Source: Brachyspira alvinipulli ATCC 51933 (GTDB taxonomy: Bacteria; Spirochaetota; Brachyspiria; Brachyspirales; Brachyspiraceae). From it: DNA of 64,000 bases. How positions within the stretch are numbered: the first letter of the stretch is position 1; each line of letters opens with the position of its first letter. Below, piece by piece: positions 54,182 through 56,329 of this stretch. The notes under the pieces were generated by a model. The model saw only the letters and a list, made by a program, of their open reading frames with translations. It did not search any database and was not told the origin of the DNA. The stretch lies in the NCBI RefSeq assembly GCF_000518245.1, contig NZ_JADF01000008.1, positions 214,043 through 278,042 of the forward strand, given 5' to 3'. Both the position numbers and the translations under genes were made by a program.

Positions 54182-56329
54182 ATGAAAGGCAAACGTATAA
54201 TAATAATAGGAGCTGGGCTATTGCAGGTTCCAGCCATACAAATCGCACAGGAAATGGAACTATATACAATAGTTTTTGATTATAATAAAGATGCTCCAGG
54301 TATGAAGATAGCAGATTATCCTATGATAATGTCAACTAGAGATGTTGATGGAAGTGTAAGGGCAGCAAGAGATTTGAGTCAAAAAATGGAAATACATGGG
54401 GTTATTACAGTAGGTACTGACGCTTCTACAACTGTTGCTGCTGTTGCAAATGCTTTGGGACTTCCAGGAAATAGATTTGAAGATGCTTATGCTGCATCCA
54501 ATAAAATTAGAATGCGTGAAAGATTTAAGAAAAATAATGTCCCTCAACCAAATTTTTTTCCTGTATGGAATTATGAAGAAGCAATGGAAGCATACAAACA
54601 CTTAAATACACCGGTTGTTGTTAAACCTGCTGATAATATGGGAGCCCGTGGTGTAATGAAAGTATCAAATGAAAATGATATATTAGCTGCTTTTAACAGA
54701 GCAAAAAGTGCATCACCTTCTGGAGAAGTTATAATAGAAGAATTTATGGATGGTCCGGAACTTTCTATTGATATGCTTATATATAATGATGAAATATATG
54801 TTACTGGAGTTGCTGATAGAATAATAGAATTTCCTCCATTTTTTATAGAAACAGGACATATTATGCCTTCTGCTTTAGAAAAAGAAAAACTAGATGACGC
54901 TATTAATGTAATGAAAGCAGGTATAAAAGCATTAAATCTAAAAATCGGGGCTGCTAAAGGTGATATAAAAGTAACAAAAAATGGTGCTATGGTTGGTGAA
55001 ATTGCTGCTAGACTTTCAGGTGGATTTATGAGTGCCTATACCTACCCTCTTGCTACTGGTGTAAATTTAATAAAAAATGCCATAGAAATAGCTTTAGGAA
55101 ATCCTCCAAGCGATTTAAAACCAAAATGGGATAAAGTATCAGTAGAAAAAGCATTTCTTCCAGGTACAGGAATAATAGAATCCATTGATGGTGTTGAAAA
55201 TGCTAAAAAAATAGAAGGTATTAAAGAAGTATTTATTAAAACAAAATCTGGAGATATATTAGTTACACCTACAAACAATTTAGAAAAAGCAGGTAATATA
55301 ATAGCTGTAGGAGATACAAGAGATGAAGCTATAGCAATAGCAAATAAAGCTATGAGCTGTGTACATTTCAAATTAACAGATGAAAAAAGTATTACTATAG
55401 ATGAAATCAAAAAAGTCGCTAAAGAAAAACTATCATCTAATTCAAATGTTTCATATTTATTTGCAGAGGATACTGAAGATAAAACAGGACTTTCTGAATA
55501 TAATTTCAGCCCTAGTGTAATTCATAAAGAACCAGAGGCAAATATAGAAACCAATCTATTTAATATGCATTTATCTCAGCCTACTATAATAGATACAATT
55601 CACAATTTAAAAGAAGCAATAAACGGCATTATGGATATAAAAGAATATTATGAAACAATTATAGATGTGGCCTCTAATTGTGAAGTACTTGCCATATTTA
55701 ATGACTTTAATGACAATGAAATATTTGAACTATCATTAAAAACTATAAGTGGAAGAAAAAGAGGCATTATTATGATAGATGCCAATAATACCTTAGAAAT
55801 AGTAACACAAAAATTACAATTAGCAGAAAAAAATGGTGCTTGCGCTGTTGGTATAGATTTTTCTTACTGCTATAATATAAATGAATTAAATAAGATACAT
55901 TTTAAATCTGAAAAAGATTTAGCAAAAATAGTTAAGCAATTAGATATACCTTTAATCATAAAAGGGATATCTAGTAATAGAGATTTGGATAATATAAAAT
56001 TATCTCATATAAATAATGTTTATCTTTCAAATAATAATAAGTATGCATTAAAAGGTATGGAAAAAGTTGCCGATACTGTTGATAAAGTGGATTTTAATTC
56101 AAATCAACACTTTAATATACTTGCAGAATCTCCTAGATATGGAGTTGATGTATTTAAATATTTAGTATTGGGAACAAATGCTGTTTGTGTTACTGAAGAA
56201 AGTTTTATTTCTATTATAGGAAAAGGAAGAAAGGGACTTGAATATTTATTATATTCAAATAGAGATAAATTAGAAAAGATGATAAAGCTATTTGGACAAA
56301 CAGGCGATGTTAATTATATTAAATATTAA
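54182..56329 (+). CDS. ATP-grasp protein fused to a degenerate FMN-oxidase-like TIM barrel
   Basis: Residues 1-410 are an ATP-grasp ligase: RIIIIGAGLLQVPAIQIAQEM, VITVGTDASTTVAAVAN, VVKPADNMGARGV, VIIEEFMDGPELSID and VGEIAARLSGGFMSAYTYP. They resemble PurK/CarB-like carboxylate ligases of unknown substrate. From about 455 to 715 the sequence resembles an alpha-hydroxyacid-oxidase barrel: PLIIKGISSNRDL at 590-602 and GVDVFKYLVLGTNAVCV at 654-670, then GRKGLEYLLYSNRDKLEKM. The catalytic SNHGGR-like stretch is replaced by SNNNKY (616-621), so oxidase activity is probably lost. The fusion has no named family that I know. It heads a three-gene set, 24 bp before the GGDEF-like gene. Confidence 0.78.
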   Translation: MKGKRIIIIGAGLLQVPAIQIAQEMELYTIVFDYNKDAPGMKIADYPMIMSTRDVDGSVRAARDLSQKMEIHGVITVGTDASTTVAAVANALGLPGNRFEDAYAASNKIRMRERFKKNNVPQPNFFPVWNYEEAMEAYKHLNTPVVVKPADNMGARGVMKVSNENDILAAFNRAKSASPSGEVIIEEFMDGPELSIDMLIYNDEIYVTGVADRIIEFPPFFIETGHIMPSALEKEKLDDAINVMKAGIKALNLKIGAAKGDIKVTKNGAMVGEIAARLSGGFMSAYTYPLATGVNLIKNAIEIALGNPPSDLKPKWDKVSVEKAFLPGTGIIESIDGVENAKKIEGIKEVFIKTKSGDILVTPTNNLEKAGNIIAVGDTRDEAIAIANKAMSCVHFKLTDEKSITIDEIKKVAKEKLSSNSNVSYLFAEDTEDKTGLSEYNFSPSVIHKEPEANIETNLFNMHLSQPTIIDTIHNLKEAINGIMDIKEYYETIIDVASNCEVLAIFNDFNDNEIFELSLKTISGRKRGIIMIDANNTLEIVTQKLQLAEKNGACAVGIDFSYCYNINELNKIHFKSEKDLAKIVKQLDIPLIIKGISSNRDLDNIKLSHINNVYLSNNNKYALKGMEKVADTVDKVDFNSNQHFNILAESPRYGVDVFKYLVLGTNAVCVTEESFISIIGKGRKGLEYLLYSNRDKLEKMIKLFGQTGDVNYIKY

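Follow-up and report, generated by a model that had tools for sequence, protein, structure and literature searches.

The fusion gene and its two halves

In the stretch of Brachyspira alvinipulli DNA analyzed here (64,000 nucleotides in all, referred to as the window), an open reading frame on the forward strand at positions 54,182–56,329 encodes a 715-residue fusion protein, in which an ATP-grasp ligase of the L-amino acid ligase (LAL) type is followed by a degenerate barrel of the FMN_dh type; the start codon is ATG. The host genome is 3.42 Mb in size and its nearest named relatives are Brachyspira species. The frame is full-length and uninterrupted in 24 other Brachyspira genomes, which establishes it as a real gene and rules out a frameshift or a chance reading frame; in the 25th (G014) the orthologue is seen only as a fragment at a contig edge.

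Residues 1–400 (54,182–55,381, forward strand) comprise pre-ATP-grasp, ATP-grasp and LAL_C2 domains, as judged by Pfam, invariant columns and solved relatives. The ATP-grasp_4 match (residues 142–282, E=5.5e-15) and that to LAL_C2, the L-amino acid ligase C-terminal domain 2 (residues 326–398, 55,157–55,375, forward strand, E=4.6e-18), both lie above the curated cut-offs. Six residues, K148, E186, E193, D261, E273 and R277, are invariant in 51 aligned sequences, and from general knowledge of the ATP-grasp family we take them to be of the nucleotide- and metal-site type. The solved structures closest to the ligase part are 4dim (E=1.1e-25) and an L-amino acid ligase, BL00235 (PDB 3vot, E=2.3e-25); the latter resembles the window ligase in its combination of ATP-grasp and LAL_C2, although identity is low and BL00235 has no barrel. 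By analogy with this family, the ligase is putatively active and would convert a carboxylate to an acyl phosphate that is then joined to an amine. The gene neighborhood gives no hint of the substrate because no conserved operon partners of the fusion gene were found across 80 loci.

The linker that follows (residues 411–439, 55,412–55,498, forward strand) aligns with a segment that carries the pattern CxxCxxC[DN]GxxC...PGxGG in intact relatives, and here it has none of the four cysteines. The barrel itself occupies residues 440–706 (55,499–56,299, forward strand). Pfam FMN_dh (PF01070) matches residues 577–706 with E=9.2e-13 and 48.4 bits against a curated cut-off of 24.9 (E=1.5e-13 when the C-terminal part is scanned alone), and a profile made from the barrels of intact homologues matches residues ~436–706 (E=1.4e-35). 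Since the latter match spans the entire region, the whole barrel is covered, not its second half alone, and the FMN_dh-like signal that the initial annotation placed in residues 455–715 is recovered by both profiles. No NCBIfam equivalog matched the 715-residue protein above its cut-off, the hits being limited to resemblances to ligases and lactate dehydrogenases, and in a single-sequence search the solved relatives closest to the barrel were flavocytochrome b2 and lactate/glycolate oxidases (E ~1e-5).

AlphaFold modeled the window protein (mean pLDDT 88.1, pTM 0.59) with eight strands alternating with helices in this region, and homology together with this predicted strand/helix order is the basis for a tentative assignment to the TIM-barrel fold. 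Each domain is modeled with confidence, but as the pTM indicates it is uncertain where the barrel sits against the ligase, and no contact that would explain regulation was seen. In the model of the intact relative L090 (pLDDT 90.0, pTM 0.57), residues 431–439 around the Cys motif are among the lowest-confidence stretches.

Residues lost from the barrel and the spread of the fusion

Residues were tabulated from one alignment (A3) that includes 44 intact-type relatives. Residue roles, given in glycolate-oxidase (GOX) numbering, including those of D285, G286-G287 and G308-R309-P310, are presumed from knowledge of the FMN_dh family. All 44 intact-type relatives keep the four cysteines and the equivalents of K230, R257, DGG, R289 and GRP, and at the catalytic His position 36 have H, six R and two K. 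In the window protein the four Cys-motif positions are occupied by S, S and gaps. At residues 616–621 (56,027–56,044, forward strand) SNNNKY replaces SNHGGR, with N618 in place of the catalytic His and Y621 in place of the substrate Arg, as the initial annotation had noted; the losses in fact extend further. At residues 648–654 (56,123–56,143, forward strand) AESPRYG replaces xDGGxRxG, so that ESP stands for DGG, with the Asp and both Gly gone and Arg652 kept, and at residues 671–673 (56,192–56,200, forward strand) TEE replaces GRP, which contains the presumed FMN-phosphate-binding Gly-Arg. Thus the equivalents of D285, G286-G287 and G308-R309-P310 are missing along with the four upstream cysteines, and what is left of the flavin set is K594 (55,961–55,963, forward strand), the counterpart of the active-site Lys K230 of GOX, and R652, the R289 equivalent, plus S616-N617. 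Pfam, the family profile and this residue table together bear out the earlier reading of an ATP-grasp ligase joined to a catalytically degenerate FMN_dh-type barrel. Homology to the alpha-hydroxyacid dehydrogenases and oxidases of PF01070 (glycolate oxidase, lactate oxidase, flavocytochrome b2, MftD) is detectable across the barrel; unlike these enzymes, however, it lacks the catalytic His, the substrate Arg, the FMN-phosphate Gly-Arg and DGG, and it sits behind a ligase.

The degenerate state is not that of the fusion in general. In lineages other than Brachyspira and the sister genus, CxxCxxC[DN]GxxC and PGxGG lie just ahead of the barrel and are followed by IKG, SNHGGR, DGGxRxG and GRP, whereas the Cys motif is absent from the window protein and from every Brachyspira and sister-genus member examined. 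FMN_dh bit scores run from 232 and 190 for the intact L085 and L084 to 62 for L080 of the sister genus and 48 for the window protein. The initial annotation had considered that homologues might retain the catalytic residues; distant homologues indeed do, and Brachyspira and the sister genus have lost the whole site. Because whole-site loss is limited to these two genera, the degeneration is a derived event in a normally intact fusion. L083, which belongs to another, third genus in the family, retains DGG, GRP and the Cys motif but has Lys in place of the catalytic His, an intermediate state. Seven non-Brachyspira fusions (L091, L098, L106, L109, L114, L119 and L130) carry SNRGGR, apparently a separate loss of the oxidase residue with the rest of the flavin site seemingly kept. 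The CxxCxxC[DN]GxxC...PGxGG segment lies just before the barrel in L085–L146, and in the alignments shown the solved-structure matches do not cover it; it resembles a metal-binding or Fe-S site, here within a subfamily of FMN_dh.

We searched 61 genomes (the host's own, 25 congeners and others drawn from its family, order and phylum). A ligase match was present in all of them, and reading frames of 720–800 residues that carry both parts were found in all but one of the 25 congeners (24) as well as in the majority of the remaining families covered. Scanning species genomes yielded 239 relatives, the best 80 of which include named Brachyspira species, many Spirochaetota metagenome-assembled genomes (MAGs), one labeled Brevinema, Leptospiraceae MAGs, and MAGs labeled Coatesbacteria and Nitrospinota (labels as deposited). 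Most non-Brachyspira relatives are ~39–45% identical to the window protein across nearly its full length, with the same domain order. The Spirochaetota fusions L085–L146 are also of similar length, and the ligase part of most spirochaete relatives with the fusion is 55–73% identical to the window ligase; they keep the Cys motif, SNHGGR (or SNRGGR/SNKGGR), DGG.R and GRP, none of which is whole in the window protein.

This domain order has been noticed before: Leptospira interrogans LA2659 was annotated in 2010 with FMN-dependent isomerase and ATP-grasp folds (PMC2964297), and we liken it to the window fusion by that published annotation. The type 2 isopentenyl-diphosphate isomerase of the LA2659 annotation was rejected as an assignment for the window protein, TIGR02151 giving 11.3 bits (E=0.12) against a cut-off of 281. 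The initial annotation knew of no named family with this order, and apart from the one Leptospira annotation we likewise found none in Pfam, NCBIfam or the literature searched; the order itself, however, is not new, being widespread in Spirochaetota and present in MAGs labeled as other phyla as well as in LA2659. For the retained pseudoenzyme state in Brachyspiraceae we found no description in the literature searched. The fusion was already known, as an annotation; the retained pseudoenzyme state is seemingly new.

Other arrangements of these domains were also encountered. L055 and L056 (genomes G047 and G058) have an intact Cys-motif barrel on a divergent ATP-grasp part, ~24–29% identical to the window ligase, and the same two genomes hold a closer ligase homologue without a barrel (39–46% identical, reading frames of 427–453 residues). 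In L059, L060 and L061 (genomes G036, G059 and G048), the ligase has another C-terminal extension of ~130–150 residues instead of the barrel; these extensions share a W..G..QG..Y..DT pattern, with no Pfam match in the two that were scanned.

Timing of the change and selection on what remains

The ligase topology obtained with IQ-TREE recovers a monophyletic Brachyspira (support 96) and groups it with the sister genus (support 63). Branch lengths for the barrel were compared with those of the ligase on the same topology: the Brachyspira stem measures 1.94 substitutions per site for the barrel versus 0.045 for the ligase, the sister-genus tip 1.96 versus 0.23, and the L083 tip 1.25 versus 0.21, the long barrel values being near saturation and hence to be read as large, not exact. 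The remainder of the tree totals 20.6 for the barrel and 14.9 for the ligase.

Among the Brachyspira sequences and one sister-genus sequence, median dN/dS was 0.04 over residues 1–320; the barrel gave ~0.24, most close pairs lying at ~0.08–0.19. The ratio of barrel dN to ligase dN was 3.4 in Brachyspira versus 0.97 in intact pairs, for which this ratio alone was used because their dS is often near saturation. Purifying selection still acts on what is left of the barrel, and the raised dN ratio combined with a dN/dS of ~0.24 means that constraint has been relaxed or changed, yet the barrel is not free of it. Eight residues, E649, S650, T671, E501, F509, R527, Y490 and N666, do not vary in either degenerate genus and depart from the intact set or from its main residue; since these new invariants are common to both genera, at least part of the change in the barrel was shared by them and was afterwards maintained.

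Possible roles of the altered barrel

On balance we favor, as a reading that is somewhat more probable than its negation, a putatively active LAL-type ligase carrying an ancestral flavoenzyme domain that has become a retained pseudoenzyme barrel, kept for a supportive role. The fusion is old and normally equipped with an intact FMN_dh site and the four-Cys motif. Brachyspira and the sister genus have lost Gly-Arg-Pro, Asp-Gly-Gly, the His, the Arg and the Cys motif, with hardly any change in the ligase. The barrel presumably no longer performs hydroxyacid-oxidase chemistry and, going by its residues, probably no longer holds FMN; it would be kept because it stabilizes, multimerizes or regulates the fused ligase. 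In the intact relatives, it is natural to suppose that the ligase is coupled to a flavin-dependent step that oxidizes the same acid or the product, with the Cys motif perhaps holding a metal or an Fe-S center. The present role of the degenerate barrel is probably non-enzymatic, because the catalytic, flavin-gripping and cysteine residues are gone and yet selection preserves the barrel.

We also considered that the flavin pocket of Brachyspiraceae might have been rebuilt as a new ligand-binding or catalytic site, perhaps a metabolite sensor, that controls the fused ligase, instead of persisting as an inert scaffold. Within the genus, positions at the C-terminal ends of the eight strands, on the old active-site face, are better conserved than other barrel positions (mean entropy 0.44 bits as against 0.78; p=0.033 in a single circular-shift test with strand ends taken from the AlphaFold model), and E649, S650 and T671 of the shared new invariants are located at such ends. 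However, this p value is modest and uncorrected, and strand-end sites may be conserved for folding; we regard a rebuilt pocket as a tentative possibility, less likely than not. If true, an ancient two-enzyme fusion would have become a ligase with a built-in sensor.

Let us assume, alternatively, that the redox activity moved in trans, an intact stand-alone FMN_dh-like gene taking over and letting the fused barrel decay. A stand-alone relative of ~340 residues is indeed present in 24 of the 26 Brachyspira genomes, the host's own included; in the other two, G014 and G020 (both ~85% complete), none was seen. The host's copy (337 residues, G000:C6:210357-211346, L002:1411-2421:-) is a homologous, unfused barrel of the same subfamily as the fused one, with an intact Cys motif, CKACAICNGRVC, and SNHGGR. 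In the genomes with an intact fusion, the fused barrel is the sole copy, except in G049, which agrees with such a transfer. In contrast, the degenerate fusion of the sister genus g2 (G026 and G028, 98–99% complete) is not accompanied by any stand-alone copy at E<=1e-15, and the stand-alone protein is ~40% identical to a fused intact barrel, which does not support a recent excision as its source. Transfer in trans thus seems to us rather unlikely. The census also contains lineages with a ligase and no barrel match (G035, G036, G040 and G052) or with a ligase and weaker, partial barrel matches in short reading frames elsewhere (G038, G048, G050 and G059). Because some lineages hold the ligase without the barrel, ligation does not depend on the barrel in general, and because some lack both an intact barrel and an in-trans replacement, neither is required by every lineage.

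The initial annotation had proposed allosteric sensing of FMN or of a hydroxyacid, or a scaffold. In the sensing case, the barrel would bind FMN in an altered manner and act as a flavin or redox sensor. In its favor, K594 and R652 are retained in the window protein, but these positions are not universal among the degenerate relatives (S and S in L080, C for R652 in L079), and with the phosphate-binding Gly-Arg, Asp-Gly-Gly, the substrate Arg and the catalytic His all lost the proposal is unsupported. FMN sensing by the window barrel is unlikely, and we consider altered FMN binding quite improbable as an account of why the barrel persists; a scaffold or another regulatory role is possible. Least probable, and only barely credible, is that the barrel is a useless remnant drifting to loss, as its very long branches and the lack of a recognizable barrel in some lineages might suggest, since the full-length frame in 24 other congeners, a barrel dN/dS well below 1, the shared new invariant residues and the confidently predicted fold all speak against ongoing pseudogenization.

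The role of the barrel is open to direct test, since nature offers the whole range from intact and His-changed to degenerate and barrel-free forms. This study brings to light a conserved spirochaete ligase-flavoenzyme fusion and, within it, what would be a clearly bracketed case of a pseudoenzyme, in which one half of a conserved fusion has been gutted, with intact, partly changed (L083) and degenerate relatives standing side by side.
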